Origin: Bacteroidales bacterium
GTDB taxonomy: Bacteria > Bacteroidota > Bacteroidia > Bacteroidales > UBA932
NCBI GenBank assembly: GCA_017454265.1
Contig: JAFTDJ010000026.1
Span: 1 to 39,062 of the forward strand
DNA: 39,062 nt
Direction: 5' to 3'
This document shows, piece after piece, positions 6,260 through 39,062 of this stretch. The stretch's first letter is position 1; each line of letters starts with the position of its first letter. The translations under genes were made by a program, and so were the position numbers. A model generated the notes under the pieces. It made no database searches. It saw nothing but the letters and a program-made list of their open reading frames with translations, and was not told the DNA's origin.

Positions 6260-7500
6260 AGCCCGAACGCCCTCCTGATATTGTCTACCTCGTCCAGCAG
6301 CTCCCAACCGAAGAACTGCACCTCGCGCTGCTGGCCGCACACCGTCACCGTCCCGCGGTAAGGCTTGCGGCCCACATGACCGTAGGCGGCTGTGGGGCTG
6401 AAAATAGGATTCTTGAGCCCGAAGCGGCGCACTATGGCGGCGGGACGCAGGTCGAAGAGCTCCCGTACGCGGGCGGCTATCTCGCCGTCTCCGCCGGGAA
6501 CGTGCGCGCTGCCGTAAGTCTCTACGAAAACGCTCACCGGCTCGGCCACGCCTATTGCATAAGCCAGCTGCACCAGGGCCTCGTCGCATACGCCCGCGGC
6601 CACCAGGTTCTTGGCGATGTGGCGGGCCGCATAGGCGGCGCTGCGGTCCACCTTGGACGAATCCTTCCCCGAGAATGCACCGCCGCCGTGGGCCCCGCGT
6701 CCGCCGTAGGTGTCTACGATTATCTTGCGCCCGGTGAGTCCGGTGTCTCCCGCCGGGCCGCCGATTACGAACTTGCCGGTGGGGTTAACGTGCAGTATCC
6801 AGTCGCCCTTGAAGAGGGAGGCGGTTCGCCCGGGGAGCGAGGCGATGAGGCGGGGGAGGAGTATCTCACGCACATCCTTCTCGATACGGTCGTGCATGGC
6901 CTGCTCGGTGTCGAATTCATCGTGCTGCGTGCTCAGGACTATCGTATGTACGCGCACCGGATGGTGGTGCGAGCTGAATTCCACGGTGAACTGCGCCTTG
7001 GCGTCGGGCCGCAGGTAGGGCATAAGTTCCGGCTCCTCGTGGCGAATGCGGGAAAGCTCGCGGAGCAGCGCGTGCGAGAGGCTGAGCGCAAGCGGCATAT
7101 ACTCTTCGGTGTCCCGGGAGGCGTAGCCGAACATCATTCCCTGGTCTCCGGCACCCTGCGCGTCTTCGCTGGAACGCACTACGCCACGGTTAATGTCGGC
7201 GCTCTGCTCGTGGATGGTGCTGATGACCCCGCACGAGGAGGCGTCGAACCCGTATTCGGCTTTGGTATATCCTATCCGCGAGATGACCTTGCGCACTGTT
7301 TCCTGGATGTCCACGTAGGCGTGCTCGCTGCGCACCTCTCCGCCCACCACCACAAGGCCGGCGGTGCAGAATGTTTCACATGCTACTTTTGCTTCCGGGT
7401 CCTGGGAGAGGAACTCGTCCAGGATGGCGTCTGAAATCTGGTCGGCAACCTTGTCGGGGTGCCCTTCGGAGACTGACTCCGACGTAAATAAATAGTTCAT
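6256..7500 (-). CDS. metK: S-adenosylmethionine synthetase
   Basis: Cytoplasmic enzyme making S-adenosylmethionine from ATP and methionine. The start is the ATG at 7498-7500, giving [20 protein letters not shown], the conserved N-terminus of the family; a frame extending to 7536 adds no conserved sequence. The ATP-binding GHPDK and the glycine-rich [15 protein letters not shown] loop are intact. The 414-aa length is normal for the longer Bacteroidota form. It is first gene of a metK-smpB operon. A -7-like box (7562-7569, minus strand) implies a leader of about 55 nt that contains a possible small stem. Confidence 0.97.
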
Positions 7501-7561
7501 TTTAGCATTTTTTAGAGCGAGGTTGCAAGCAGGCAAATCTGTCCTCGCAGGTTAAAGTGTG

Positions 7562-24997: not shown

Positions 24998-25130
24998 TTA
25001 AAAATATCTTGTTTTTCATAGTAGCTTCTGACAATATAATTTATTTATAGTCAAGTAGAAAAGTATTATAATAGTATTTGAATAACCTTGTTTTGTTTCC
25101 AGGGCTATAATAAGCGATACCTTTTATTCA

Positions 25131-25138
25131 TATCTTTG
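25131..25138 (+). promoter_or_regulatory. -7 box (TATCTTTG) of the SusC/SusD operon
   Basis: Exact TAnnTTTG match, about 57 nt before the ATG at 25196. There is no TTTG at -33, as often seen for activator-dependent Bacteroidota operons. The DUF6377 protein may bind the A/T-rich interval 24998-25130. Confidence 0.6.
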
Positions 25139-25195
25139 TTACAACACTGTTGTTCTGTGGTGCACTTTGACCCGAAACTAACTATTAACCATTAT

Positions 25196-28100
25196 ATGAT
25201 GAAGTCCTTGTTCTCCCAGAAGTTAATGCTCTTCGCTTTTCTGCTGCTCAACGCTACCTTCGCAATGGCCCAGCAGCCGGAGATTCGCGGCACTGTTACG
25301 GACGCCTCTACCGGCGAACCGGTTCCCGGCGCCGTCCTGTTCGTGCAGGGCGGTAACGGTGGCACTGCAACCGATGCTTCCGGCAAGTATAAGATTCAGG
25401 CAGGCGGCGACGCGGTGCTTGTGTGTTCCTGTATAGGTTACGTGCAGGTGCAAGTGAACGTTGCCGGCAGGAGCGTAATAGATTTTTCCCTCTCTCCCGA
25501 CGTTGAAATGCTGGAGGAGACTGTTGTCGTAGGTTACGGTACACTCAAGAAATCGCAGCTCGTGGGCAGTGTGGAGCAGGTCTCCGGCGATGTGCTGGAA
25601 GACCGCGTGAATGCCAACGTCTCCCGCACCCTTCAGGGACAAGTTCCCGGACTCAGCATTTTCCAGGTTGACGGCAAGCCTACGCACGGCGGCTCAGTCT
25701 ATATCCGCGGCGGCGCAACCAGTTACACCATGAAGAAGAACATGAACAGCAGCACCATCTCCTCCTACTCCATCGGCCAGGGAGGCAGCGCCCTCATCCT
25801 TATAGACGGCGTGGAAGGGGAGCTCGCTACTGTGAACCCCGAAGACATAGAGTCCGTTTCCGTGCTCAAGGATGCTTCTTCTTCTGCAATCTACGGTTCC
25901 AGGGCTGCCTACGGCGTGATTCTGGTAACCACCAAGAACGCTAAGAGCGACAAGGTTACCGTCAGTTACAACGGCTCGTGGACGCTCAACCGCCGTACTG
26001 TGATGTGGGAAGACAACGTGATTACCGACGGCCTGGAGTACACGGAGACCTTCTATGACTTCTGGCTGGGCCGTACCGCCACCCCCGAAGCGGACGGCCA
26101 GATGCCCACCAAGATGAACACCTACAACATCCCGTCCGACTACCTGGAGCGCTTCCGTGCCCGCCGTGCGGAGGGGAATACGGAGGTGTACGACATGAAC
26201 GGCAAGAACTACCTGTATTATGCCAGCGAGAACTGGCTTGCAAAGTTCTACAAGCGCTCCAACACCACCCAGACGCATTCTGTCAGCGTAAGCGGTGCTT
26301 CACAGAAGATATCTTATTCCCTGTCCGGCCGCTACTATACCCAGGATGGCATATACAAGATTGGTAAAGAAGCCTACAACCAGTACAACCTCCGCTCAAA
26401 AGTGGTCTTGCGTGCCAGGGACTGGCTCACCATTGACAACAACACCTATTTCTATCATACGGATTACATCCAGCCAATCTTTTCCAGGAAGTACGACAAC
26501 GTCGGCAACCAGCTGTGGCAAATTGGTATGCTGGGCTTGCCGGTCATGCCCACCAACAACGAGGACGGCACCTTCACTATAGGTGCTGCCGCCTCCGGTT
26601 ATGAAGCTTTCCTGCAGGGCAATTCGGCGCAGAACAGCTGGACTAATTCCGTGGTCACTACTACCGGAGTCACCATAGAGCCGGTAAAAGACGTGTTCAA
26701 GGTCCGCGGCGACTTCACCTACAAATATACCGCCCGCCATACGCAGCGCTACGTTGCCCCCACCTCCCAGAGCATCCAGCCCGGTGTCGTTACATACTAT
26801 GTTACACAGGCCGACTCCTACAAGCGGGAATACAACTACGAGACCGGCCACATCTCCGCCAATGTGGTGGGCACCTTTACTCCCAGGCTCGGCCCCGACC
26901 ACAAACTCAATGTCGTGGCCGGCTGGAATCTGGAAGACCACCGCTACGATACGGAGACCATCCTGCGCCTCGGTATGATGTACCCCGGAATGACCAGCTT
27001 CGAGCTCTTCAACGGCTCGGAAATTACTCTTGCCCAGTACGACAGCAACTGGCGCACCATAGGTGCCTTCGGCAGGGCCAACTACACTTTCCTGGGACGC
27101 TACATCCTGGAAGGCTCGTTGCGCTACGACCTCAATTCCCGTTTCCCTGCCAAACAGCGCGGAGGCTGGTTCCCGTCTGCTTCTGCCGGCTGGCGAGTGA
27201 GTGAGGAACCTTGGATGAAGGGCGTCAAAGGAGTTATAGACAACCTTAAGATTCGCGGTAACTGGGGTTCCCTGGGCAACGGAGGCGTGAGTCCGTACAC
27301 CTTCCTGGAGACCATGGCGGTGGGCAATTCTTCCGTCATCTTCGACGGAAGCTTTGCCAGCACGGCGGGAATGCCTGCGATAGTGCCCGACAGCCTCACC
27401 TGGGAGAAAATCAAGACCTGGGATGTCGGTCTGGATTTCGATATCCTGCGCAGCCGGCTGTCTTTCTCCGGCGACTACTACGTACGCTACACGGACGAGA
27501 TGTACTCCTCCGGCCCTGAAATCCCCGCGATTCTTGGCGCAGAAACGCCCAAGGGCAATTACGGACAGCTTACCACCAAAGGCTGGGAACTTACCCTTTC
27601 CTGGCGGGACGCTTTCAAGCTTGCCGGCAAAGACTTCACTTACTCCGTAAAGGGCAGCCTCTGGGACAACCGCACCTGGGTTACAAAATTCTACGATGAG
27701 AGCCACAACATATTCGGATTCTACGAGGGCAAGGAACTTGGAGAGCTGTGGGGCTTCCGCACCGACGGTCTGTTCATGAGCAACGAAGAAGCGGCTGCAT
27801 GGTTCCCCGACAGGTACCACAATCTGCTTACTTCCACCGTGCCTTATGCCGGCGACATCAAGTTCCTCGACATAGATGACAACAAGGAAATCACCGCCGG
27901 CGCGGGCACCCTGGAAGATCATGGCGACCTGGAGGTGATAGGTAACATCATGCCCCGGTATCAGTACGGAGTGAACTTTGACTTCCGCTGGAACGGCATA
28001 GGCCTGGGCATTTTCCTGCAGGGTATCGGACATCGCGACTGGTACCCTTCCGAGGGCTCCGGTTTCTTCTGGGGCGGCTATGCCCGTGCATACGATTATG

Positions 28101-28534
28101 CTCTCAAGGACCAGAAAGACGTCGTAATCCTGGACAAGAGTACGTCCAACTGGACGGTTACCAACCCCGGTGCCTACTGGCCCCGCAGGCTGTACGGCGC
28201 TGCCAATGCCGGAAGCGGACTGGGTACCATGAACTCCTACAACGACTACTTCCTCCAAAATGCAGCCTATCTCAGGCTCAAGAATGTCACGCTGGACTAC
28301 ACCTTCCCGTCCAAGCTCACAGAAAAAATCGGAATAGACAAATTACGCGTCTATTTCTCCGGTGAGAACCTGCTTACCTTCTCTCCCATCTTCAAGCATA
28401 CCTCAATGTTCGACCCTGAAGTCATCGGCAAAGGCGATACCGACTTCGGAGGCCAGACCTCTACCACAGCGGGCGACGGATACAGTTATCCTATGCTTAT
28501 GTCCTTTACCTTTGGTATCAACCTCACATTCTAA
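25196..28534 (+). CDS. SusC/RagA family TonB-linked outer-membrane protein
   Basis: An 1112-aa importer for large breakdown products, working with SusD as a lidded barrel. The start is the ATG at 25196 (MMKSLFSQKLMLFAFLLLNATFAMAQ, signal peptide); the frame upstream crosses the -7 box. Order of parts: carboxypeptidase-regulatory-like domain (about 28-105, IRGTVTDASTGEPVPGAV), the SusC motif ETVVVGYGTLKKSQLVGSV, a plug with ILIDGVEGEL and VLKDASSSAIYGSRAAYGVI, and a barrel ending MLMSFTFGINLTF. It is followed at 12 nt by the SusD gene. No STN or FecR-type signalling domain is present, so regulation probably runs through DUF6377. Confidence 0.96.
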   Translation: MMKSLFSQKLMLFAFLLLNATFAMAQQPEIRGTVTDASTGEPVPGAVLFVQGGNGGTATDASGKYKIQAGGDAVLVCSCIGYVQVQVNVAGRSVIDFSLSPDVEMLEETVVVGYGTLKKSQLVGSVEQVSGDVLEDRVNANVSRTLQGQVPGLSIFQVDGKPTHGGSVYIRGGATSYTMKKNMNSSTISSYSIGQGGSALILIDGVEGELATVNPEDIESVSVLKDASSSAIYGSRAAYGVILVTTKNAKSDKVTVSYNGSWTLNRRTVMWEDNVITDGLEYTETFYDFWLGRTATPEADGQMPTKMNTYNIPSDYLERFRARRAEGNTEVYDMNGKNYLYYASENWLAKFYKRSNTTQTHSVSVSGASQKISYSLSGRYYTQDGIYKIGKEAYNQYNLRSKVVLRARDWLTIDNNTYFYHTDYIQPIFSRKYDNVGNQLWQIGMLGLPVMPTNNEDGTFTIGAAASGYEAFLQGNSAQNSWTNSVVTTTGVTIEPVKDVFKVRGDFTYKYTARHTQRYVAPTSQSIQPGVVTYYVTQADSYKREYNYETGHISANVVGTFTPRLGPDHKLNVVAGWNLEDHRYDTETILRLGMMYPGMTSFELFNGSEITLAQYDSNWRTIGAFGRANYTFLGRYILEGSLRYDLNSRFPAKQRGGWFPSASAGWRVSEEPWMKGVKGVIDNLKIRGNWGSLGNGGVSPYTFLETMAVGNSSVIFDGSFASTAGMPAIVPDSLTWEKIKTWDVGLDFDILRSRLSFSGDYYVRYTDEMYSSGPEIPAILGAETPKGNYGQLTTKGWELTLSWRDAFKLAGKDFTYSVKGSLWDNRTWVTKFYDESHNIFGFYEGKELGELWGFRTDGLFMSNEEAAAWFPDRYHNLLTSTVPYAGDIKFLDIDDNKEITAGAGTLEDHGDLEVIGNIMPRYQYGVNFDFRWNGIGLGIFLQGIGHRDWYPSEGSGFFWGGYARAYDYALKDQKDVVILDKSTSNWTVTNPGAYWPRRLYGAANAGSGLGTMNSYNDYFLQNAAYLRLKNVTLDYTFPSKLTEKIGIDKLRVYFSGENLLTFSPIFKHTSMFDPEVIGKGDTDFGGQTSTTAGDGYSYPMLMSFTFGINLTF

Positions 28535-28546
28535 TAAGTTCCGGCT

Positions 28547-30370
28547 ATGAAAAGATACGCTATAATGTTGTTCGCAGTGCTGTTTGCCTGCTCATGCGAG
28601 GATTATCTTGAGAGAACTCCCGCCAACAAATTTGCCGCCGAAACATTCTTTGCATCAGAAGCTGACCTGCAGCTGTATGCCAACGGTCTCATAAACGCGG
28701 CCCTTCCGGGAGCTGCCGACATTGCGCTGGCAGAAGACCGCTACACGGATTTCTGCGGCACCCGCCAGTCAAAAGACTTCTACTGGGGCACATATACGGC
28801 GGCCCAGGCGACGAACTGGACATACAGCACCTGGAGCTTCTCCCGCCGTGTTGCATATATGTTGGAGAATATGCCCCGCTGCAAGGACGTGGTCCCCGAG
28901 GCTGTCTACAACCATTACGAGGGAGTGGGGCGCTTCTGGCGTAGCTGGATGGCTCTCAAGCGCATGAAAACCTTCGGCGAAATATACTTTATAGACAAAG
29001 TGGTCCAGCCGTCTGATTCCCTGATTCTTTACAGCCCCCGCCAGGACAGGGAATACGTATTCCACAGGATTACGGAGGACCTCGTTTTCGCCTGCGAGAA
29101 TTGCCTCAGCGCCGGAGAAGGCATTAACTCCGCCGGAAGGGTATATGTAAACAAATATGTGGCGCTGGCTTTTGCCTCGCATGCATTCCTGTACGAGGGC
29201 ACTTACCGTAAGTACCACAGTACAAATCCTGCTACCGGCAACCCCTGGAACGGCGAGTACGAAAGCTCCGACGAGTTGCTGGCCCTTGCGGAAAAGTATG
29301 CCAAGGAACTTGTGGAAACCGGGGCCTTCAGCCTGAATCCCGACTACCGTTCGCTGTTCGTATCTGCATCCCTGCCCACTGACGAGGTGATCTGGGGCCG
29401 CACTTATTCGAGCGAGCTTAGTACCAACCATGGTGTTACATACAAGTACTGCTCGACTACATCCTCCCTCAGCTATTCCCCCACGAAGGAATACGTAAGG
29501 ATGTTTCTCAAGACCGACGGCACCCCTGCAGAGGCCGCGGTCAGCGTGACCAAGGAGTTCGAGGGCCGCGACAATCGCCTTGCCGCAACCGTCTTGTCTC
29601 CCGGACGGCAATGGAAGCGGCTCAATGGTACCATGGAAGAGCTTCCTCCCAACTGGACCTGGACTTGCGCAGGCTACGAGTGGATCAAGTGGGTGCAGTT
29701 GGAAGAAGAGCCAATGAGCGCCGACAACAAGGCCTACAACTCCATTCCCATCATACGCTACGCCGAAGTCCTGCTCAATTATGCCGAAGCCGCAGCCGAG
29801 CTCGGGCATATGAACCAGACCATCTGGGACCAGACTATAGGCGCTCTGCGCAAACGCGCCGGAGTCAGGAGCATCTACCCGGGAGCTGCCGGGTATGTGG
29901 CCGACACCTGGCTGCGCGAGTATTACACCAAGGATGTGCTGCATCCCTCAAGTCTCTCCGACGTGCTGCTGGAAATACGCCGTGAGCGCGCTACGGAGCT
30001 TACCCTGGAGGGTCAGAGCCGATATGATGACCTTATGCGCTGGTGCCTGGGCGATCTTGTGGAACGCCGCTATAATCACCAGGGCTGGAGGGGCATCTAT
30101 ATCACCAGGGAAGAGGCGGCCGCCGGCTTCAAGTGGGGAAATACGGGCAAAACCTATACGGTTTCTTCCTCAAGGGCTACGAGCGAGACCAACTACAAGA
30201 TTTCCGGTACCGCAAACAGCAACTGGAGTCTCTCGGAAGGCACTTATGGCTACCTCATATACAATTACAAACTGGTGTGGGACGATATGATGTACACTCA
30301 TCCCATACCGCTGAATGCACTTAACGTCAATCCCAACCTCGGCCAGAACGAGGGATGGCAATGGATATAG
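28547..30370 (+). CDS. RagB/SusD family nutrient-uptake lipoprotein
   Basis: A 607-aa surface lipoprotein that binds substrate and caps the SusC barrel. The N-terminus MKRYAIMLFAVLFACSCEDYLER has the SusD-type CEDYLE after the signal (lipid on C17, or possibly C15). Family features seen: AAETFFASEADLQLYANGL; the helical TPR-like core (VGRFWRSWMALKRMKTFGEIYFI); YAEVLLNYAEAAAELG; LRKRAGVRSIYPG; RRERATELTLEGQSRYDDLMRW; and a C-terminal HPIPLNALNVNPNLGQNEGW. It is at 12 nt from SusC and 6 nt from the next lipoprotein, so one operon. Confidence 0.96.
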   Translation: MKRYAIMLFAVLFACSCEDYLERTPANKFAAETFFASEADLQLYANGLINAALPGAADIALAEDRYTDFCGTRQSKDFYWGTYTAAQATNWTYSTWSFSRRVAYMLENMPRCKDVVPEAVYNHYEGVGRFWRSWMALKRMKTFGEIYFIDKVVQPSDSLILYSPRQDREYVFHRITEDLVFACENCLSAGEGINSAGRVYVNKYVALAFASHAFLYEGTYRKYHSTNPATGNPWNGEYESSDELLALAEKYAKELVETGAFSLNPDYRSLFVSASLPTDEVIWGRTYSSELSTNHGVTYKYCSTTSSLSYSPTKEYVRMFLKTDGTPAEAAVSVTKEFEGRDNRLAATVLSPGRQWKRLNGTMEELPPNWTWTCAGYEWIKWVQLEEEPMSADNKAYNSIPIIRYAEVLLNYAEAAAELGHMNQTIWDQTIGALRKRAGVRSIYPGAAGYVADTWLREYYTKDVLHPSSLSDVLLEIRRERATELTLEGQSRYDDLMRWCLGDLVERRYNHQGWRGIYITREEAAAGFKWGNTGKTYTVSSSRATSETNYKISGTANSNWSLSEGTYGYLIYNYKLVWDDMMYTHPIPLNALNVNPNLGQNEGWQWI

Positions 30371-30376
30371 ATAATT

Positions 30377-31978
30377 ATGAAAGTCAAAATTTTACAATGC
30401 TTGTGCGCAGCTTGTGTGGCAGTCTTGCTCGTTGCAGGATGCACAAAGCCCGACGATCCTCAGAAGAAGGATGACGCCATAAGTGTCTCCCCGGACAGGC
30501 TCGACGCTTCCTGGGAAGGTCAGATATTCGATATCCAGGTACAGTCCAACTGCTCCTGGACCATCTCCAAGACCGACGAGGAAGGCAATGCCGTGGATTG
30601 GGTAAAGTGCGACCGCGCCACCGGCAAGGACAACCTGGAGTTCAAAGTGCGCGTGTACAAGAACACCATGACCGACGCCCGCAATGCCACCGTTACGCTC
30701 TCGTCCGGGAACGTGAAAGCGTTCATAGATGTTACCCAGGGGGGCAATCCCAACCCCGATCCCGTGCCTGGTCCCGATCCCGGACCAGGTCCTGACCCGG
30801 GTCCAGGCCCTGACCCGGGTCCGGGACCTGAAGGTGACGAGTTTACGCTTACCTTCGACTTCACCGGCTCTCCCTTCGACGGCTGGCCCACAGCCTCCGG
30901 AGACCACATAGAGGGCGGTATCACCTGCATTTATCCTCTGGGCGGCGTGGATTATCCCTTTATCCTGGCCGATTGCGGCGGAGCCGGCGCATCCCAGATG
31001 TTCTGGGCCGTTGACGGCACCCCTCGCCTTGCCTTCGGAGCACAGTACCGCTACCTGGGACTTCCGCCCATAGAGGGCTACAGGATAGGAGTCGTAAGCT
31101 GCGAGAGCGTGCTTCTGAACGAGAAGTCTGCGTCCATGGCGCCCAAGATTGCAGTAACCGACAGGATTGCCCCTTCTGCCGCAGATGCAAAGGCAATAAC
31201 CGATGACTCTCCTGACATAGTGCCCGGCGGGCAGTTCCAGACCTGGCAGGCAGGCGGCGGAGGGACATACACATATAAGCTCAGCCAGACGGCTTCCAAT
31301 ACTGTTTACTATCTGTATGCGCTGGTGAAGGGCGCTGTTTCCAGTATTGCGATTACTTATTACAAAGATGGTTATACCCCCGACCCGGGTCCCGACCCCA
31401 CCCCCGATCCGGGCCCTGACCCCACCCCCGACCCTACCCCGGATCCTCCGGCAGAGGCCGACGTGGTGCTCAGTTTCGACTTTACCGTAACTCCGTTCGA
31501 AGGCTGGCCCACAGCCGGTAAGTACGAGCATACCGAGGGCGGCATTACGTGCATCTACCCCCTGAATGGAGTGGACTACGCCTTCATCCTGGCCGACTGC
31601 GGAGGCGCCACGGCTGCCCAGATGTTCTGGAATCCCGGCCCGGCATACCTTGCTTTTGGTGCGCAGTACCGCTATCTGGGACTGCCGGCTGTGGCCGGAC
31701 ATAAGCTCGTAAAGGTTTATTGTGAGAATGTAGAGTTCTCATCGCAGGTCCCCAAGGTGTATATAACCAGTGCCATAGCGGCGTCGGCGGCGGACGCCAA
31801 GGCGGTGAACAACGACTCCCCCGAGATTGTGAAGGGCGGAGAATACCAGATTTGGTCTGCCACCGGCGGCGGAAGCTATACCTATACGCTTCCCGAAACT
31901 GCGCCGGATACCGTATACTACATTTACGCCCAGGTAAAGGGCGCGATAAGCAAACTGGAATTGAGTTACGCTAAATGA
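30377..31978 (+). CDS. BACON lipoprotein with two copies of an unrecognised C-terminal domain
   Basis: A 533-aa lipoprotein (LLVAGC, C22). BACON domain about 33-120 (ISVSPDRLDASWEGQIFDI, SNCSWTISKTDEEG). Two copies of a domain of about 170 residues follow (about 154-330 and 361-533), each preceded by a Pro-Gly-Asp linker. Shared features: FDFT..PF.GWPTA, EGGITCIYPL.GVDY.FILADCGGA, QMFW, LAFGAQYRYLGLP, SAADAKA..DDSP.IV.GG..Q.W, and YYLYA.VKGA. The same domain ends the lipoproteins at 34712 and 37092. In SusCD loci, a lipoprotein in this third position is usually a surface glycan-binding protein; that role is inferred. The next gene's ATG overlaps its TGA (ATGA). Confidence 0.8.
   Translation: MKVKILQCLCAACVAVLLVAGCTKPDDPQKKDDAISVSPDRLDASWEGQIFDIQVQSNCSWTISKTDEEGNAVDWVKCDRATGKDNLEFKVRVYKNTMTDARNATVTLSSGNVKAFIDVTQGGNPNPDPVPGPDPGPGPDPGPGPDPGPGPEGDEFTLTFDFTGSPFDGWPTASGDHIEGGITCIYPLGGVDYPFILADCGGAGASQMFWAVDGTPRLAFGAQYRYLGLPPIEGYRIGVVSCESVLLNEKSASMAPKIAVTDRIAPSAADAKAITDDSPDIVPGGQFQTWQAGGGGTYTYKLSQTASNTVYYLYALVKGAVSSIAITYYKDGYTPDPGPDPTPDPGPDPTPDPTPDPPAEADVVLSFDFTVTPFEGWPTAGKYEHTEGGITCIYPLNGVDYAFILADCGGATAAQMFWNPGPAYLAFGAQYRYLGLPAVAGHKLVKVYCENVEFSSQVPKVYITSAIAASAADAKAVNNDSPEIVKGGEYQIWSATGGGSYTYTLPETAPDTVYYIYAQVKGAISKLELSYAK
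30743..30835 (+). repeat. Pro-Asp-Pro-Gly linker repeat 1
   Basis: Tandem degenerate CC(C/T)GA(T/C)CC(C/G)GG(T/A/C) units encode a PGPDPGPGPD-type linker between the BACON domain and the first copy of the C-terminal domain. Such linkers give reach to surface lipoproteins. The repeats make length change by recombination likely. Confidence 0.8.
31375..31450 (+). repeat. Pro-Asp-Pro linker repeat 2
   Basis: Tandem CCCGACCC-type units encode PDPGPDPTPDP between the two copies of the C-terminal domain in the same lipoprotein. The composition parallels linker 1. Confidence 0.8.
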
Positions 31979-33180
31979 AACGTGTGGTTATTGTTTGTGT
32001 TGGTTTTGTCCTCGCAGCTGCCTTCCTGGCAGCCTGCGGGGGCAAAGAAAACCCGTCGGGAGAGACCCTCTCCGTTGATCCCCTGAGAATTGACGCTCCA
32101 AAAGACAAAGGCTCCTACAAGCTGGCAGTGACTTCCAATGCCGCATGGACGGCGAATTTCCAGGATGCCGGCGGCACGGCCCTCTCCTGGGGTGTCCTGG
32201 ACCGCTCAAGCGGCACCGGCGATGCCACCCTTACGCTCCGGCTTTACGAGAATAAGTACAACGTCGCGCGCAGCGGCTCGCTGGTGGTCAAGACTACCGG
32301 TGGAGTCGTTGCCACCGTTTCCGTGGTGCAGGAGGGCGACTCCGGCTCCCAGACGGAGCAGGTCACGGTAAAAATGAGAATAGGTTCCTACAACCTGCGC
32401 GGTAGCTGGCTCACGGAGACCAAGCCGGAAAACGACTGGTCGCTCCGACAAACCAGGCTCGGCCAGTCTATACGCGACTGTGCCTTCGACATAGTCGGCA
32501 TGCAGGAAGTTGGGGCTGACGCCCAGAGCTGGCTCAGCTCCAATTTCTCAGACACCTATACATTCAAATTCTTCAGCCCTTACTCGCAAAACGGAACGGG
32601 AGACAGGAGCCAGGCCGTAGGCTGGCGAACAGACACCTTCACTATGAGTGAGTGGAATTATTTCTGGATGGGAGACACTCCCGGTACCATGAGCCGCAAC
32701 GATACGGGAGCCAGCGGAAACTACAACCGAGGCGGATGCTGTTGTGTGCTGACACATAAGGCAACCGGTCTCAAAATTTTCCTTATGAACACTCACGGCT
32801 GTATGAATTCCGGTCCCAACTGGGATTATGCCCCGCAGTTCGAGAGGATGGAGAAGCAGTACAACCAGATGGGGCTGCCTTCCTTCTTCGTGGGAGATAT
32901 GAATTCAACAGAGTCATCCGAGCCCGGCTCCCCATACATGGTGTACACTTCTTACTGGAAAGACTCCTATAAGGAGGTCCCCGGCGCCAAGCGCTCTGGC
33001 TGTATAGGCACCTTCAACGGCTACTCCGCCCCAACCGGCAAGAACCGCATAGATATGGTGTTCTTCCGCGGAGGCAACCCCACGGTGGCCGATACCTACA
33101 CCTGCAAGAACACCCTGTACGGCGGTCTGTACGCCTCTGACCATTTCCCTGTGTTCGTGGATTTTACCGTTACCAATTAG
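31975..33180 (+). CDS. BACON-EEP fusion lipoprotein (secreted phosphodiesterase)
   Basis: A 401-aa lipoprotein (FLAAC, C21) with a BACON domain (about 31-120) fused by a short linker to an EEP domain (134-401). The active site is complete: GSYNLRG (N140), GMQEV (E178), NTHGCMN, GDMNS (D308, N310), NRIDMVF, and ASDHFPV (D389, H390). The stretch FFSPYSQNGTGDRSQAVGWR and NYNRGGCCCVL are shared with the two EEP sequences downstream, so all three are paralogues. It starts within the previous TGA (ATGA). It is clearly exported, unlike its paralogues, which makes it the reference for how the enzyme normally reaches the surface. Substrate unknown: nucleic acid or a phosphodiester-bearing glycan or lipid. 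Confidence 0.9.
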   Translation: MKRVVIVCVGFVLAAAFLAACGGKENPSGETLSVDPLRIDAPKDKGSYKLAVTSNAAWTANFQDAGGTALSWGVLDRSSGTGDATLTLRLYENKYNVARSGSLVVKTTGGVVATVSVVQEGDSGSQTEQVTVKMRIGSYNLRGSWLTETKPENDWSLRQTRLGQSIRDCAFDIVGMQEVGADAQSWLSSNFSDTYTFKFFSPYSQNGTGDRSQAVGWRTDTFTMSEWNYFWMGDTPGTMSRNDTGASGNYNRGGCCCVLTHKATGLKIFLMNTHGCMNSGPNWDYAPQFERMEKQYNQMGLPSFFVGDMNSTESSEPGSPYMVYTSYWKDSYKEVPGAKRSGCIGTFNGYSAPTGKNRIDMVFFRGGNPTVADTYTCKNTLYGGLYASDHFPVFVDFTVTN

Positions 33181-33189
33181 CATAGACCG

Positions 33190-34560
33190 ATGAGAAGAAC
33201 GTTACTCCTGATAACGGCGTTAGCCCTCTGTTGCGGCACGCTGCAGGCCAAAGACCTGGACCTCAAGAAGTGCGGGGCCCGCGCCGACGGCAAGACAAAA
33301 GTAACCAAAGTGCTGCAGAAGGCCATAGACGATATCTCCGCATCCGGCGGCGGAAGGCTTACAGTCAGCGGCGGCACATTCCTGGTAACGCCGTTCGAGC
33401 TCAAGAGCGGCGTTGAACTACATATCGACGCAGACGCCGTGCTGCTTGCCTCGCCCGACCTTGCCGACTACCCCGAGCGCACCGACGTGCGGCATTACGA
33501 TTCTGCCGCCATGCCGCGCTTCCGCAACGTCTCCCTCATCTATGCCGACGAAGCCCGCGACATTGCCATCACGGGGCGCGGCGTCATAGACTGCAACGGC
33601 ACTTGCTTTACCATGCCTAAAGAGGGTGATGACTGGACCGGCTGGCACTTCGTGCGCACTGTGCCACGCAAGCAGTCTCTCCCGAGGGTGGTGTTTTTTG
33701 CCGGCTGCACCGATGTAACGGTGACAGATGTGACCATGCGCAACCAACCCGCAGGCTGGAGCTACTGGATTCACGACTGCGACCGGGTACACTTTGACAA
33801 CTGCAAGATACTGGCCGACGTGCGTTATCCCAACAACGACGGCATTCACCTCAACTGCAGCCGCGATGTCACGGTCTCCGACTGCATCATAGTTACCGGC
33901 GACGATTCCATCGTGATTCGGGCCAACAGCCGCTCTCTCAATGAAAACAAGGCCTGCGAACGGGTGGTGATAACCAACTGCACCCTTCGAAGCTGGTCTG
34001 CGGCAGTGCGCCTTGCCTGGACAAATGACGGGGTAATCCGGAATTGCGTACTCTCCAACCTGGTCATCCACGATTCCTCCAAGGGCGTGAGCATAGACCT
34101 GCCGGAGTACACTGCCCGCAATCCCCAGGACGCCTCCAACGACTACGGCCGCGAGGCCACGCTCATTGAGAACATTTCGTTCTCCAACATCCTTATGGAC
34201 AAAGTGTTCTATCCTGTTTACGCCCGCATCCATACGAATCCCGAGGTGCTGGTGTCGGCAATACGGAACCTGAGCTTCATCGACATGCAGTGCAAAAGCC
34301 TGTATTACCCTTATCTGCAGGGCCGTAAAGACTGTCCCATAGAAGACGTGGTATTCCGGGGGTGCCGTTTTATGCGACTCACTCCGGACCTGATGCCGGA
34401 CGTCAAACGGCACGGTGCCGTGCCCAAGCGCACTACCGAGCAGTTTGTGCACGTACAGCGGCTCTCATTCGAGGGATGCACCTTCTCCTATACCGGCGAC
34501 TTCGACTTCCGCAACGACTACGATTGGAATGTCGCCGACCAGCGACCCAAAGAACAATAA
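33190..34560 (+). CDS. GH28-like (polygalacturonase family) parallel beta-helix protein
   Basis: A 456-aa exported protein (signal MRRTLLLITALALCCGTLQA). It opens with KKCGARADGKTK...LQKAIDDISASGGGRLTVSGGTF, the usual GH28/pectate-lyase-like start. Conserved acids are NNDGIH (D217) and GDDSIVIR (D238, D239). The next motif, normally GHG, reads as SWSAAVRLAW, and the R-x-K station is weak (SKGVSID), so the catalytic His is not evident. That suggests a divergent specificity or a non-pectin substrate. It lies 9 nt after the BACON-EEP gene in the same operon and is the only recognisable glycoside hydrolase in the locus. Confidence 0.82.
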   Translation: MRRTLLLITALALCCGTLQAKDLDLKKCGARADGKTKVTKVLQKAIDDISASGGGRLTVSGGTFLVTPFELKSGVELHIDADAVLLASPDLADYPERTDVRHYDSAAMPRFRNVSLIYADEARDIAITGRGVIDCNGTCFTMPKEGDDWTGWHFVRTVPRKQSLPRVVFFAGCTDVTVTDVTMRNQPAGWSYWIHDCDRVHFDNCKILADVRYPNNDGIHLNCSRDVTVSDCIIVTGDDSIVIRANSRSLNENKACERVVITNCTLRSWSAAVRLAWTNDGVIRNCVLSNLVIHDSSKGVSIDLPEYTARNPQDASNDYGREATLIENISFSNILMDKVFYPVYARIHTNPEVLVSAIRNLSFIDMQCKSLYYPYLQGRKDCPIEDVVFRGCRFMRLTPDLMPDVKRHGAVPKRTTEQFVHVQRLSFEGCTFSYTGDFDFRNDYDWNVADQRPKEQ

Positions 34561-34576
34561 TCAACACCCGATATTT

Positions 34577-34699
34577 ATGAGAAAAACAAAACGTTACCTG
34601 CGGCCCGAGCTGGCCGAACTGGAGGCCCTCGAGGACTCCCTGATCTGTACCTCATATGAAGGGGTAGACACAGAAGAATGGACCGAAGTTGACTTCTAA
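34577..34699 (+). CDS. Small peptide of the Y-x-x-P-E type (cassette A)
   Basis: A 40-aa reading frame starting MRKTKRYLRPELAELEALE and ending DTEEWTEVDF, with no signal peptide. It lies 16 nt after the GH28-like gene and 12 nt before a fimbrillin-like lipoprotein. A peptide of exactly the same length in the same position of the next cassette aligns without gaps over its last 34 residues, keeping Y7, P10, an acidic residue at 11, E14, the (I/L)(I/V)C-x-S core and a C-terminal E-(E/D)-W-x-E. That conservation is the main reason to call it a gene. Similar short 'KPE' peptides occur in many Bacteroidales from memory; function unknown to me. Confidence 0.7.
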   Translation: MRKTKRYLRPELAELEALEDSLICTSYEGVDTEEWTEVDF

Positions 34700-34711: not shown

Positions 34712-36109
34712 ATGAAACAGAACAGATTATTTCTTATCGTTGCTGCCGCACTCTCATTGGCAGCTTGCACAAAGTTGGAAGTCTCTCCGCAGGAGAGCGG
34801 CGGCGAGGCGCGCACTTTCACATTTATCGCCGATTTTGACGGCGGCTCTTCCACCAAAGCCGTGATTGAAAAGAATGCCGGCGGCAAGCCTCAGGTGTTC
34901 TGGGAGAACGGAGATCAGATTACTGTTTACACCCAGGCCAGCGGCGACTCCGGGACCCAGAAAGGCTTTGAGTTTATTACGAGTCTTGGCCAGAATGCCG
35001 CCTCGGCTTCTTTCAGCTACACCGGCGACGATTTTGCCGAGGGCAATTACCTGGCAATTTTCCCGGCGGCAACAGCGGGCAGGGCTGTCAACTTCACAGG
35101 GACAGACGAAGTTTACAAAATGGCCGCAGTTGACGTACCTTCAAGCCAGACGCTTCCTGCATCCGGCGGCTTTGACAAGAATGCATGCGTCATGACGGCA
35201 TATGCCACTTCCGGCAGCAAAGCCCTGCATTTCAAGAACGCAGTGGCGCTGCTGAAATTCCAGGTCTCCGGCTCCGGCATTACCTCAGGAAGCATTGTGG
35301 CCGCAAATGGAGATCTTATCTCCGGCCGCTTCCGTGCCGACCTTAACATAAGCGCACCCTACGAGCCTGTGCTCACGGCTTACAATCAACCGGAGTTTTG
35401 TTACGTAGATTTTGCGGCCGAGGGCGGGGAAGCTCTGTCGGAAGGCTTAGATTATTATGTCGCAGTACGTCCCACTGCCTTGGCGGAGGGCTTTAAGGTT
35501 TATCTTAACGACAACCTGGTGAAGACGGTAAGCGCTGCAGAGCTTGCCAGGGGCACCGTTTACAACCTGGGATCCCTGTCTCTGCCCGCAGGCCCCAAGT
35601 CCAAGGTGCTTACCTTCGACTTTACCGGCGACCCTCTGGAGGGCTGGCCCACAGACCAGAACAAGAATGACTTTCCTCACGTAGAGGGCGGCGTGGAATA
35701 TACTTATCCGCTGGACGGCACCGATTACACATTCGTCCTTGCCGACTGCGGAACTGCCACGAATACTGCTGCCCAACTGTTCTGGCACACAAGTACCCAT
35801 GCTTTGGTATTCAACGCCCAGAAGCGCTATCTCGGGTTCCCTGCAATCGCAGGATACAAGCTCACCAAGGTCGTATGCCTCAACAAATCCGGTACTACCA
35901 CGGCCAAGTTCGAGATGGTGAAGAGCATATCTCCTACCACGGACGACCCCGCTGAGTCCGAGATAGTATCTCCCGCCCAGGTATGGTCTACCAAGGGTAT
36001 CTCCTACACTTATTACCTCTCCGGCACAAAGGCGAATACCAGATACTATCAGTATTGCCTGGTGAAGGGCTCGGTGGGTAAGTTTACCCTCATTTACGAA
36101 CCGGAGTGA
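34712..36109 (+). CDS. Fimbrillin-like lipoprotein with shared C-terminal domain (cassette A)
   Basis: A 465-aa lipoprotein (ALSLAAC, C19); ATG at 34712 is preferred over the adjoining GTG at 34709. Residues about 35-290 look like a fimbrillin-like (Mfa-like) region: FTFIADFDGGSSTKAVIEK, QVFWENGDQITVYTQ, YLAIFPA, HFKNAVALLKFQV, DYYVAVRPT, YNLGSLSL. Residues about 298-465 are the domain found twice in the protein at 30377 (FDFTGDPLEGWPT, EGGVEYTYPLDGTDYTFVLADCG, RYLGFPAIAGYKL, YYQYCLVKGS). It ends FTLIYEPE then TGA, after which the same frame continues into the EEP domain. It is likely surface-displayed. A structural or binding role is inferred. Confidence 0.83.
   Translation: MKQNRLFLIVAAALSLAACTKLEVSPQESGGEARTFTFIADFDGGSSTKAVIEKNAGGKPQVFWENGDQITVYTQASGDSGTQKGFEFITSLGQNAASASFSYTGDDFAEGNYLAIFPAATAGRAVNFTGTDEVYKMAAVDVPSSQTLPASGGFDKNACVMTAYATSGSKALHFKNAVALLKFQVSGSGITSGSIVAANGDLISGRFRADLNISAPYEPVLTAYNQPEFCYVDFAAEGGEALSEGLDYYVAVRPTALAEGFKVYLNDNLVKTVSAAELARGTVYNLGSLSLPAGPKSKVLTFDFTGDPLEGWPTDQNKNDFPHVEGGVEYTYPLDGTDYTFVLADCGTATNTAAQLFWHTSTHALVFNAQKRYLGFPAIAGYKLTKVVCLNKSGTTTAKFEMVKSISPTTDDPAESEIVSPAQVWSTKGISYTYYLSGTKANTRYYQYCLVKGSVGKFTLIYEPE
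36107..36109 (+). other. In-frame TGA between lipoprotein and EEP domain (cassette A)
   Basis: The only stop codon separating the lipoprotein frame from the EEP domain. The frame continues EPE-stop-RDEMAEEQLRVGTFNV. The ATG used for a separate start lies 10 nt past the stop in the same frame. The next base is A (TGAA), not one of the strongest termination contexts known in other bacteria. Confidence 0.85.
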
Positions 36110-36118
36110 AGAGACGAA

Positions 36119-36913
36119 ATGGCTGAAGAACAGCTCCGTGTAGGCACTTTCAACGTCCGTGTCATCACTTCCGACGACACGGGCGAGAATGCCTGGGAGA
36201 AGCGTAAGAGCAGGGTGGTGAACGCCATCAATGAGTGCGACTTCGACGTTTTCGGACTCAACGAGTGCAGCACAGCCACGCAAAGCTACCTCTCCAAGCA
36301 GCTGAAAAACAGCTACAATATACAGTTCTTCAGCCCCTACGCCCAGAACGGAACCGGCAACAAGGCCCAGGGACTTGCTTACCGCAAGGGCTGGACCCTG
36401 AGCGACTGGCACTACTTCTGGCTGTCGGACACTCCGGACGTGATGACAACGAACGACGGCACCATGAACCGCGGCGGATGCTGCGGCATCCTCTCCAAGG
36501 ACGGTACAGACCTCAAGGTCTTTGTAATGGTGACTCACGGAGCGCTTAGTGCAGAAACGCGGTCGCAGTATGCGGAGCTTTACGAGCAGATGGAGAAAAA
36601 GTACAATCCCGGAGCTTATCCTTCTTTTTTCGTGGGCGATATGAACTCCAAGCCTTCCGGGGCTGCCTCGGTGGTGTACCGCAGGTATTGGAGCGATGCT
36701 TATTACGCAGTTGGCGAGGCGGGCCGCAGCGGCCCTGCCGCCACCTACAACGGCTGGGACCTGGAGCTCGACCTGTATTCGAGCGACAGCCGTATAGACT
36801 ACATTTATTACCGTGGCGCTACGCCTCTGAGCTATGTGTGCAGCGATACCCGTTACGGCGGCTGTTACCCGTCGGACCACCTTCCCGTTTATGCGGACTT
36901 TAGAATAGAATAG
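36119..36913 (+). CDS. EEP-family phosphodiesterase without its own signal peptide (cassette A)
   Basis: A 264-aa EEP domain from ATG 36119 (MAEEQLRVGTFNVRV). The active site is intact: N12, E48 (GLNEC), H139 (VTHG), D173 and N175 (GDMNS), D226 (RIDYIYY), D252 and H253 (SDHLPV). It is a paralogue of the BACON-EEP protein at 31975 (FFSPYAQNGTGNKAQGLAYR, MNRGGCCGIL). There is no signal peptide or lipobox, which is odd for an enzyme of a surface locus. It is collinear and in frame with the upstream lipoprotein apart from one TGA. It could be a cytoplasmic enzyme, the product of readthrough as a lipoprotein-EEP fusion, or the remains of a split fusion. Confidence 0.85.
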   Translation: MAEEQLRVGTFNVRVITSDDTGENAWEKRKSRVVNAINECDFDVFGLNECSTATQSYLSKQLKNSYNIQFFSPYAQNGTGNKAQGLAYRKGWTLSDWHYFWLSDTPDVMTTNDGTMNRGGCCGILSKDGTDLKVFVMVTHGALSAETRSQYAELYEQMEKKYNPGAYPSFFVGDMNSKPSGAASVVYRRYWSDAYYAVGEAGRSGPAATYNGWDLELDLYSSDSRIDYIYYRGATPLSYVCSDTRYGGCYPSDHLPVYADFRIE

Positions 36914-36957
36914 AAACTTTAAATAATTGTTAAACTGATGATTACTCAAAAAACCTC

Positions 36958-37080
36958 GTGGGGGGGGGGGTAGAATACGCCTCTCCGGACATTAAAGAAA
37001 TCACCCTGCGCCCCTCGCGCATAGTGTGTGCAAGTACAAGAAGTGCCTCCTTTGAGGACTGGGAAGAAGAGAATCTCTAA
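36958..37080 (+). CDS. Small peptide of the Y-x-x-P-E type with poly-G start (cassette B)
   Basis: From GTG 36958 the frame gives a 40-aa peptide starting MGGGVEYASPDIKEI and ending FEDWEEENL, the same length as the cassette A peptide. It aligns with that peptide without gaps from Y7 to the end. The first codons after GTG are an 11-G run. The nearest ATG (36938) would reach this frame only if the run had 9 or 12 Gs; with 11 it meets TAG at 36971. The stop lies 11 nt before the fimbrillin-like lipoprotein gene, as in cassette A. A GTG start is therefore a choice based on homology and length. Confidence 0.6.
   Translation: MGGGVEYASPDIKEITLRPSRIVCASTRSASFEDWEEENL
36960..36970 (+). repeat. Homopolymer of 11 G
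   Basis: Eleven consecutive Gs at the start of the cassette B peptide gene, by far the longest single-base G run in the window. Runs of this length slip during replication and are the basis of on/off switching in many bacteria. A sequencing or assembly length error is also possible. Confidence 0.9.
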
Positions 37081-37091
37081 TAGTTTGAGCC

Positions 37092-38513
37092 ATGAAGACT
37101 AGTCGTTTGTTTTTTATCGCTCCGGCGGCGTTTGTATTAGCTGCCTGCGCAGAAATTGATGTGAATGTGGATGTGATACCTGCTGAAACAATCAGCACGG
37201 TTACGTTCAGTGCTGTCATGGACAATAACAACCCCGGCTCCAAGGCCGTAATCGGCACCAATCCGGAAACAAGCAAGCCTCTTACCTTTTGGGAAAACGG
37301 GGATGAGATTACCGTTTATTCGCAAGGGACTGGAGATTCGGGAAATCAATCCGGATACACATTCTCTACAACCCTTGGGGCAAACGCTTCATCTGCCGAT
37401 TTTACCTACACCGGAGACGGATGGGTGGCAGGGAGTGCTTATATGGCTATCTATCCTGCCACTGGCAGCCGTTCAGTCAACTTCACTCCGCAGGAAACAG
37501 TTGCTTCTAGTGGCGAGTACTTCTACAGAATGGCCGCCGTAGATGTCCCCCATTTCCAGACACTGGTTGCAAACAGTTTTGACCGCAATGCCATGGTGGC
37601 TACGGCTTACAGTACCGACAATACCTTCGCTTTCAAAAGTGCAGTAGCTCTTCTCAAATTCCGGGTATCGGATGCAGATGTCAAAGGAGGTACGGTGGTT
37701 GTTGCAAACAAGAAGATTTCCGGTCGTTTTCGCGCAGACTTGAGCACCACTTCCCCATACGAACCCATATTGACAGATTATGATCAGACAACTTATGACA
37801 ACGTAGAGTTTTCCATCGACGGCAGCACTTCTCTCTCTACCGGAACGGACTACTATGTTGCAGTAAGGCCTACGGAGTTGGACACTGACCTCAAGGTATA
37901 TCTGAACGGTTATCTTGTGAAGACAGTCGCCAAAGCTCAACTTGGGAGTATAGTCCGGAACAAAATATATAATCTGGGAACGTTGTCCAAAGCTGGAGCT
38001 GCTGAGATTCTTTTAAACTTTGACTTTGCTGGCACACCTCCCACGGTGGATCCTGCTTGGCCGACGGCAGCTAAGGATTACAATAATAATGGTAATGGCA
38101 CTTCCAGTATAGAACGAGTTTATCCGTTATATGGGACAAACTATTCTTTTGTTCTAGCAGATCCAGCCGACGCCCAGAACTCACAAGTGTATTGGCTTTC
38201 AGGCAGTGGCATAGTATTTAATGCCGCTAAGCGCTATTTTGGATTCCCCGCAATATCCGGGTACAAATTGACAAAAGTAGTGTGCTACAAAAAGTCCGGT
38301 AGCACTGACGCCAAATTCAAGATGGTCAGTAATATTGTTAATAGTTCGAGTACTCCGACACTTGTGACAGGTGGTGACGAACAAGCCTTTAATACAAATG
38401 GTGCGTATTATACATTCGACTTGAGTGGAACTGAAGTAAATACGAGGTACTATCTCTATTGTTCCGTTAAGGGAACGGTGGCAACATTTACTCTCACTTA
38501 TGAACCTGACTGA
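37092..38513 (+). CDS. Fimbrillin-like lipoprotein with shared C-terminal domain (cassette B)
   Basis: A 473-aa lipoprotein (FVLAAC, C19), paralogue of the cassette A protein. The fimbrillin-like region (about 30-295) keeps GSKAVIGTN, LTFWENGDEITVYSQGTGDSG, YMAIYPA, FKSAVALLKFRV, DYYVAVRPT and YNLGTLS. The shared C-terminal domain (about 303-473) keeps FDFAGTP, WPTA, VYPLYGTNYSFVLAD, RYFGFPAISGYKLTKVV and YYLYCSVKG, but has lost the Cys of ADCG (ADPA) and carries an Asn-rich insertion. It ends FTLTYEPD then TGA, and the frame continues into an EEP domain. Codon usage is more A/T-rich than its neighbours. Confidence 0.83.
   Translation: MKTSRLFFIAPAAFVLAACAEIDVNVDVIPAETISTVTFSAVMDNNNPGSKAVIGTNPETSKPLTFWENGDEITVYSQGTGDSGNQSGYTFSTTLGANASSADFTYTGDGWVAGSAYMAIYPATGSRSVNFTPQETVASSGEYFYRMAAVDVPHFQTLVANSFDRNAMVATAYSTDNTFAFKSAVALLKFRVSDADVKGGTVVVANKKISGRFRADLSTTSPYEPILTDYDQTTYDNVEFSIDGSTSLSTGTDYYVAVRPTELDTDLKVYLNGYLVKTVAKAQLGSIVRNKIYNLGTLSKAGAAEILLNFDFAGTPPTVDPAWPTAAKDYNNNGNGTSSIERVYPLYGTNYSFVLADPADAQNSQVYWLSGSGIVFNAAKRYFGFPAISGYKLTKVVCYKKSGSTDAKFKMVSNIVNSSSTPTLVTGGDEQAFNTNGAYYTFDLSGTEVNTRYYLYCSVKGTVATFTLTYEPD
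38511..38513 (+). other. In-frame TGA between lipoprotein and EEP domain (cassette B)
   Basis: The frame reads EPD-stop-RSVYDDVVRVGTYNV. Compared with cassette A the stretch between the stop and RVGT(F/Y)NVRV is one whole codon shorter, so the frame has been kept across the indel. No ATG lies in the EEP frame near its start. Confidence 0.85.
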
Positions 38514-38534
38514 AGGAGTGTTTACGATGATGTC

Positions 38535-39062
38535 GTGCGGGTGGGGACGTACAATGTGCGTGTGATAGGGACGGAATCGGACGAACAGAATAATTGGGAA
38601 AACAGAAAGACTCGCGTAGTGCAATCGATACGAGACAACGATTTTGACTTCTTCGCTCTTCAGGAGTGTTCGTCGGACATCCAGACGTACTTGAGTACGG
38701 AATTGGCCGACACCTACAACATCCGCTACTTCAGCCCCTACTCCCAGGATGGGAACGGGAATAAGGCGCAGGGTCTGGCATATAAAAAGGACTTCACTCT
38801 CACGGACTGGAATTACTTCTGGGTCGACGACTTTGATCATACCTATATGCAGACCAATGATACCGGAAGCGAAGGCAGTTACAATCGTGGAGGACTCTGC
38901 GGCGTGCTGACCAAAGGGGATATGCACATCTTTGTCATGGCAACCCACGGCATGATGAATGCCGGGCCAAGGGAAGAAAAGGCAGGGGTATATGAGTATC
39001 TGGAAAAACTCTACAACACCTCCGGATATCCGTCCCTGTTCATCGGTGACATGAACGCCCGC
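38535..39062 (+). CDS. EEP-family phosphodiesterase, 3' end outside window (cassette B)
   Basis: From a possible GTG start at 38535 the frame runs to the window edge (176 codons: VRVGTYNVRVIG...). Recognised EEP stations are YNVRV (N), ALQECS (E), ATHGMM (H) and GDMNA (D, N); the rest lies beyond 39062. It is closely similar to the cassette A enzyme (YFSPYSQDGNGNKAQGLAY, GSYNRGGLCGVL). No ATG is available in frame after the TGA at 38511, and no signal peptide is present. It therefore depends on GTG initiation, on coupling to the lipoprotein gene, or on readthrough of the TGA. Confidence 0.75.
   Translation, partial: MRVGTYNVRVIGTESDEQNNWENRKTRVVQSIRDNDFDFFALQECSSDIQTYLSTELADTYNIRYFSPYSQDGNGNKAQGLAYKKDFTLTDWNYFWVDDFDHTYMQTNDTGSEGSYNRGGLCGVLTKGDMHIFVMATHGMMNAGPREEKAGVYEYLEKLYNTSGYPSLFIGDMNAR

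Follow-up and report, generated by a model that had tools for sequence, protein, structure and literature searches.

Two tandem lipoprotein genes at the right end of contig JAFTDJ010000026.1 of a Bacteroidales bacterium (assembly GCA_017454265.1) each end in TGA and are each followed after a few codons, in the same reading frame, by an EEP domain lacking a signal peptide, which raises the question of whether the two parts are separate products or one protein made by reading past the stop. The contig was analysed whole (39,062 nt, hereafter the window) and comes from a draft assembly 1.94 Mb long, split into 70 contigs and 76 percent complete. Comparison with relatives, designated here by G numbers for genomes and L numbers for loci, revealed an invariant TGA, a kept frame, coding constraint after the stop, few good start codons and an intact enzyme. 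Among the explanations considered for these junctions, UGA readthrough leading to a surface lipoprotein tipped with an enzyme is by a wide margin the best and, on this comparative evidence, a probable one.

The tandem junctions in the window

The two units, named cassettes A and B, consist of the following features.

34712..36109, plus strand: lipoprotein A, with a lipobox signal peptide (LSLAACT), an unnamed N-terminal part and a C-terminal domain in common with the open reading frame (ORF) at 30377; ends in TGA
36107..36109, plus strand: junction stop A, TGA followed by A
36110..36136, plus strand: linker A, nine codons (RDEMAEEQL) in frame; its ATG at 36119 is the sole in-frame ATG among the ten linkers compared below
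36137..36913, plus strand: EEP domain A (PF03372), without a signal peptide, intact to its TAG stop
37092..38513, plus strand: lipoprotein B, paralogous to A at 53 percent identity; ends in TGA
38511..38513, plus strand: junction stop B, TGA followed by A
38514..38537, plus strand: linker B, eight codons (RSVYDDVV) in frame, without ATG; its last codon is GTG
38538..39062, plus strand: EEP domain B, cut by the contig end after 175 residues

A preliminary description of this DNA had proposed leaky stops here, and most of its observations were borne out: the two TGA codons at 36107 and 38511 with an EEP in the same frame nine and eight codons on, the difference of exactly one codon between the two stretches, the lack of an in-frame ATG in cassette B (up to EEP residue 104, with cassette A having one at 36119), and a true lipoprotein-EEP fusion upstream, which is the uninterrupted BACON-EEP lipoprotein at 31975-33180. 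It had described the visible catalytic residues of both enzymes as intact; EEP A is complete, while the last third of EEP B, including part of the active site, lies beyond the contig end. The agreement of frame in both cassettes, for which it had put chance at about 1 in 9, is real but constitutes weak evidence alone, because neighbouring genes often share a frame here (41 of 88 close same-strand pairs in these loci); the strong evidence is provided by the homologues.

Under the readthrough explanation, most ribosomes would stop at the TGA and yield a surface lipoprotein, presumably of a glycan-binding type. A minority, at whatever rate the stop allows, would decode UGA as an amino acid (tryptophan, by analogy) and continue in frame through the linker into the EEP, giving the same lipoprotein with a C-terminal phosphatase or phosphodiesterase-type enzyme. 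The enzyme would be exported solely as the fusion, because the signal peptide sits at the N-terminus of the joint product.

Conservation of stop and frame in relatives

Of 150 relatives searched with the EEP of cassette A, 53 matched at E up to 1e-15, and of 400 genomes of the genus searched with lipoprotein A, 54 matched. An EEP profile was further searched in 398 genomes of the family and 399 of the genus, the genus draws overlapping strongly. Matches at E up to 1e-60 were confined to one of the 25 genera of the family. Nine named records with an EEP profile match are Bacteroidales or Bacteroidia assemblies whose isolate names indicate red deer, goat omasum and yak omasum; assembly names with RUG presumably stand for rumen. 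A second genus-wide EEP profile search, covering largely the same genomes as the lipoprotein A search, led to no further junction, a first scan of genome contigs with the lipoprotein gave no match, and no relative was found among viral contigs.

Ten junctions in nine genomes were recovered, namely A and B of the window and one each in G051, G023, G230, G205, G170, G322, G414 and G218. All ten have TGA followed by A at position +4 with the EEP in frame, and none carries a sense codon in place of the stop, a frame shift or a signal peptide of the EEP's own. The linker comprises six codons in seven junctions (KDDEVV, NDDEVV, SSDEVA, NYDEVV, SDDEVV, RDDEVA and KDDEVV), eight in window B and G230 and nine in window A, and these length changes preserve the frame. 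This alignment of homologous loci, which the preliminary description had put forward as a check, thus supports its leaky-stop reading.

The junction EEPs form a separate class in profile listings, with 460-521 bits (292 for the truncated copy B) and frames opening at the TGA, while the others listed reach at most 333 bits. In a maximum-likelihood tree of 29 EEPs, the ten fell into one group with a support of 100/98, and the EEP of the uninterrupted BACON-EEP lipoprotein lies outside this TGA clade. In G061, a relative of the lipoprotein adjoins an EEP that has its own signal peptide, and this EEP belongs to another clade.

The final stop of the same EEP genes provides a comparison for the junction stop. 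Among the nine complete copies it is TAG in three, TAA in three and TGA in three, which requires at least five changes on the same tree on which the junction stop shows none. Eight sister lipoproteins without such an EEP behind them end in TAA (five) or TGA (three); of these eight, G061 and G264 are neighbours to a different type of EEP that bears a signal itself, and G362 is only 86 bases away from the end of its contig. Background use of TGA was 93 of 269 genes in 31 fetched loci and 261 of 906 in a second count. Fourfold-degenerate sites are only 18-50 percent identical in all pairs except those among G023, G322 and G218, so a free stop would have changed. A stop of one type has accordingly been kept in frame across divergent homologues, as is looked for in functional readthrough.

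The base after the stop is likewise constant. In the background sample, 41 of 93 TGA genes (junctions included) have A at +4, compared with ten of ten junctions, an occurrence that constitutes a permissive 3' context for readthrough. The first codon after the stop encodes varying amino acids (R, K, N, S) and always begins with A, as expected if A at +4 matters. For E. coli, UGA followed by A is described as particularly prone to misreading by tRNA-Trp (PMC5289835).

Coding constraint and start codons after the stop

In the seven six-codon linkers, differences at codons 3-6 numbered 0 at first, 10 at second and 44 at third codon positions, corresponding to 38 synonymous against 10 non-synonymous codon differences, and codons 1-2 showed no constraint (0 synonymous, 29 non-synonymous). 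Coding constraint therefore begins directly after the stop and sets in upstream of any usable start, another property looked for in readthrough. ATG is absent before EEP residue 81 in nine of the ten EEPs. With GTG and TTG counted as well, the first possible start is EEP residue 2 in G051 and G205, and in G170 none occurs before EEP residue 27, past the first conserved stretch.

These data bear on an alternative in which ribosomes terminate at the TGA and reinitiate at a nearby GTG, TTG or ATG, releasing a separate cytoplasmic EEP. The short linkers of 6-9 codons, as in translational coupling, would suit it, as would the ATG in linker A and a GTG or TTG in six other linkers. Neither type nor position of these codons is conserved, however, with none in G170 and only residue 2 in G051 and G205, and codons 3-4 of the six-codon linkers, which are constrained, precede every GTG. 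Reinitiation would also leave the type of stop free, yet the junction stop never changes, and a cytoplasmic EEP would make little sense where the other EEPs of the cluster carry signal peptides. Reinitiation, which the preliminary description had listed as an alternative, is thus disfavoured, and we regard it as unlikely. A hop of the ribosome over the stop, or two shifts returning it to the original frame, is still harder to credit and can be given hardly any weight: by eye, no conserved codon pattern suggestive of slippage flanks the stop, and a review, in the part consulted, knows no natural in-frame stop hop (PMC5009743).

The EEP enzyme

EEP A matches PF03372 (Exo_endo_phos) over positions 1-225 of 225 with 39 bits against a cut-off of 24.5 and so belongs to this family. 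The residues N6, E43, D168, N170, D247 and H248 are invariant in 23 aligned EEP rows, and we take these N, E, D, N, D, H positions to be the catalytic ones. EEP profiles match EEP proteins in the PDB, including 4c1r, named mannosyl-6-phosphatase (E 3e-25, positions 3-241 of 266), and the domain is therefore likely to be a cell-surface phosphatase or phosphodiesterase acting on glycans; unlike 4c1r, the enzyme here would depend on a leaky stop. Other EEPs in these clusters are exported on their own, namely that of the BACON-EEP lipoprotein and those of fusions in G051 and G023 described below.

The state of the enzyme also bears on an old split, in which the TGA would be an ordinary stop fixed before the duplication and the EEP a decaying or silent remnant. 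The single origin of the junctions in the tree agrees with this, but all nine complete copies keep an intact EEP frame and the conserved N, E, D, N, D, H positions, synonymous change predominates after the stop, and the stop type is frozen while neutral sites are near saturation. An ancestral split followed by free evolution, another alternative of the preliminary description, is disfavoured by the invariance of the TGA, and we consider it improbable, more so than reinitiation.

A second family with the same design

A background reading of same-frame gene pairs was carried out in 1.40 Mb of G230, roughly three quarters of its genome. It gave 149 coding same-frame pairs, and in 138 of them an ATG follows no more than 20 codons after the upstream stop. 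The other 11 comprise nine with TAA, seven of which have ATG, GTG or TTG within five codons, and two with TGA, which are the EEP junction and a junction between a lipoprotein and a nuclease. In the latter, a lipoprotein-like gene of 1583 codons is followed by TGA, A and then 502 codons containing a Ser/Gly linker, Fn3-like repeats (recognised by eye) and an Endonuclease_NS domain (L211:9255-15512, the first nuclease junction; further loci are L245-L314).

A search with the nuclease tail in 400 genomes of the genus gave matches in 175, and wherever a stop fell inside the match it was TGA (13 of 13 rows among the matches listed). Seventy loci were examined, 30 taken from the search output and 40 chosen by open-frame length or a TGA flag. 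Sixteen of them possess a start and signal of their own, one extends past the end of its locus, and 53 were classed as start-less, from which L269, a misclassified normal long gene, was dropped. All 52 remaining start-less tails follow an in-frame TGA, as do all 39 left when the 13 pre-flagged for TGA are set aside, while the 16 nucleases with their own start and signal follow TAA (6), TGA (5) or TAG (5). The first ATG, GTG or TTG of the 52 tails occurs at codon 10 or later. Position +4 is A in 36, G in 8, C in 7 and T in 1, and position -2 is A in 50.

L286 and L306 have an upstream frame that closes within 85 codons. Among 26 complete upstream frames, 23 fit a crude lipoprotein-signal pattern (L303 being doubtful), the exceptions being L286, L306 and L307. 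Sorting the upstream C-termini of 49 usable loci gave 25 groups, whereas the tails are all related to one another, and in 55 pairs the tails are at least 60 percent identical behind upstream C-termini without detectable similarity. Similar tails behind dissimilar C-termini indicate that the tail and its TGA travel together.

RNA structure around the stops

In 50 distinct sequences, the 45 bases 3' of the nuclease TGA have a mean folding energy of -18.3 kcal/mol, against -8.2 kcal/mol for a stretch of these genes 150 bases downstream. When the 45-base stretches are set against synonymous shuffles, their mean z is only -1.13 (control +0.04); the encoded peptide thus accounts for much of the stability, and many sequences taken singly do not stand out. 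In 14 tails with a linker of the GGGTSG type, two hairpins lie immediately 3' of the stop with 98.8 percent of pair cells paired. Their covariation was 0.289 against 0.078 in shuffled alignments (0 of 500 as high), two-sided change occurring only in hairpin 2.

A third hairpin of 13 pairs, mostly with a GNRA loop, lies some 60-80 bases 3' of the TGA. Its mean z against synonymous shuffles was -4.7 in the 47 of 52 start-less tails that hold its motif, compared with -0.54 at 10 later repeats of the motif and +0.1 in 6 comparison genes, two of which matched only in the signal peptide, which leaves four fair controls. Hairpin 3 covaries in 41 of the 47 tails (0.315 against 0.138, 0 of 500 as high, in 39 distinct sequences), and does so even where this alters the encoded amino acids; the six rows omitted from this pair count were five tails without the hairpin and one duplicate (L287). 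The hairpin is absent from five tails of one subtype (L246, L253, L264, L286 and L288).

A covariance model built from 41 nuclease loci matched in 31 of 121 genus genomes. Of 30 returned loci, 21 were inspected, and 16 were lipoprotein-TGA-nuclease-like by eye and motifs, 13 of them outside the model set, while five were broken (L337 and L338) or false (L340, L341 and L343, which are not junctions). The model had no match in 117 genomes of the order, a search that had no positive control, and no Rfam family came at or near its cut-off in 15 nuclease loci. In L338, at 1501, a nuclease-type junction has a second in-frame TGA four codons on and an eroded tail, and is likely a decayed copy. In L341, a gene whose C-terminus resembles those at nuclease junctions ends in TAA, and a terminator-like hairpin with a T run (by eye) replaces the tail.

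From the nuclease family it follows that, in this genus, selection acts jointly on a local RNA signal and on a UGA that separates a surface lipoprotein from an exported enzyme, a pattern hard to read other than as recoding. The EEP and nuclease families are unrelated and share one design of lipoprotein, TGA, linker and enzyme. Taken together, the two families suggest that the genus probably runs a standing UGA-readthrough system in which at least two enzyme classes with no relation to each other (EEP and DNA/RNA non-specific nuclease) would be displayed as minor enzyme-tipped forms of major lipoproteins, and in which the multi-hairpin RNA of the nuclease family may set or regulate the ratio.

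Several observations weigh against readthrough at the EEP junctions. The nuclease family is a parallel case and not a test of the EEP case. The ten junctions form one clade with one origin, within which G023, G322 and G218 are mutually close, and do not represent ten independent events; products of frequencies therefore overstate the case, a weakness not shared by the comparison with the final stop of the EEP. Reinitiation is possible in seven of the ten, through a GTG or TTG in six linkers and the ATG in cassette A. The A at position -2 of the nuclease junctions is missing at seven of ten EEP junctions, the nuclease covariance model found no match at any of them, and a covariation test for a shared fold was negative. 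RNAalifold gave weak results there, and although single-sequence energies are low in seven of ten, stretches deeper in the EEP are equally low, so no structure is specific to the junction and RNA structure was dropped as a component of the EEP case. Stimulatory 3' structure, common in readthrough and not required for it, is thus present in the nuclease family and was not found in the EEP family. Since the EEP junctions share layout and stop with the nuclease family and not its hairpins, the argument for UGA readthrough in the EEP family rests on TGA invariance, frame, A at +4, coding constraint and missing starts.

Selenocysteine and dedicated tRNAs

If the UGA encoded selenocysteine or another dedicated amino acid, the fusion would be the main product. 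The stop in question is indeed UGA, and the hairpins directly 3' of it in the nuclease family, and in that family only, recall bacterial selenocysteine insertion with its UGA and downstream SECIS. SelA, however, exceeded its cut-off in none of ten genomes, most of them incomplete, with E. coli and M. jannaschii controls positive and short sub-cut-off matches in three genomes; SelB and SelD were not included in this search. A tRNA-Sec search of the window's genome gave 11 sub-threshold matches, and the eight of these loci that were scanned were ordinary tRNAs. The residue would moreover fall in a variable linker, and no Rfam match supports a SECIS in the nuclease loci. Selenocysteine was therefore rejected, with only a negligible probability left to a dedicated amino acid. 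A suppressor tRNA with a UCA anticodon or a tRNA-Trp with a broken stem was also rejected: none of the 29 tRNAs in 1.40 Mb of G230 has a UCA anticodon, and the one tRNA-Trp(CCA) seen has all five anticodon-stem positions drawn paired. It differs in this from the E. coli tRNA-Trp variant with a four-pair anticodon stem, which raises UGA readthrough (PMC13092985).

Relation to known readthrough systems

Viruses and animals offer well-known examples of functional stop-codon readthrough, while to our knowledge very few cases with ordinary amino acids have been confirmed in bacteria. In the CS3 pilus gene of enterotoxigenic E. coli, a surface-structure gene is said to be read past an in-frame stop by amber bypass. 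It shares with the present junctions a bacterial surface-structure gene with an in-frame stop and differs in being an amber case and a single gene, for which no genus-wide conservation or enzyme tip is known to us. The nuclease element, if confirmed, would be the first conserved, structured readthrough element known to us in cellular bacteria outside selenocysteine and pyrrolysine.

The closest mechanism is that of coliphage Qbeta, where the UGA of the coat gene is read through about once in 15 times with insertion of Trp to give the A1 protein (PMC8067240). In both systems a structural protein ends in UGA and a minority in-frame extension adds a C-terminal part. Qbeta is a virus, whereas a chromosomal lipoprotein gene with an enzyme tail, kept across species of a bacterial genus and known from sequence alone, is found here. 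Elsewhere, one confirmed E. coli case has been described and stops in interdomain linkers have been foreseen as switches between short and long forms (PMC1914089). The literature on bacterial or Bacteroides readthrough, as far as sampled, contained no report of a system of the present kind.

If fusion proteins are found, these loci would be one of the rare instances in which a stop serves as a dial in a cell and not in a virus. With UGA kept over near-saturated divergence in two unrelated families, bacteria would be setting the dose of a surface enzyme by termination efficiency. Gene finders would break each such protein in two, a lipoprotein and an enzyme that lacks a start and seems cytoplasmic, so that location and amount would be misjudged. 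The nuclease element is a short RNA directly amenable to reporter testing.

Genes around the junctions

The right end of the window is a cluster of the polysaccharide-utilisation type, in which the two lipoprotein-TGA-EEP units are preceded by the following genes.

25088..30370, plus strand: SusC/SusD pair, upstream in the cluster
30377..31978, plus strand: BACON lipoprotein, in which the C-terminal domain of lipoproteins A and B occurs twice
31975..33180, plus strand: uninterrupted BACON-EEP lipoprotein, the comparison case; its BACON match is under the Pfam cut-off
33190..34560, plus strand: GH28-type glycoside hydrolase

No Pfam family matched the lipoprotein part of A or B, and no Bacteroidales fimbrillin or Mfa-like family occurred among the Pfam matches of 18 members at E up to 1. 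In G051 and G023 the position of the GH28 gene is taken by a glycosidase-like EEP fusion of 984 and 979 residues, respectively, DUF6259 being named for the one in G051; the DUF6259-EEP fusion is a single ORF at L041:5476-8430.

A small protein of 40 codons without a Pfam match is encoded at 34577-34699, directly 5' of lipoprotein A, and a comparable small ORF lies between the two lipoproteins of G230 (by eye). The short ORF at 36938-37081, 5' of cassette B, contains a run of 11 G (36960-36970), which looks like a phase-variable tract, and ends early at TAG; with 9 or 12 G it would, by eye, encode a small protein of 40-odd codons resembling that at 34577-34699. Elsewhere in the window, a SAM-II riboswitch was identified at 7492-7552 on the minus strand with 53.7 bits, exceeding the Rfam gathering score.

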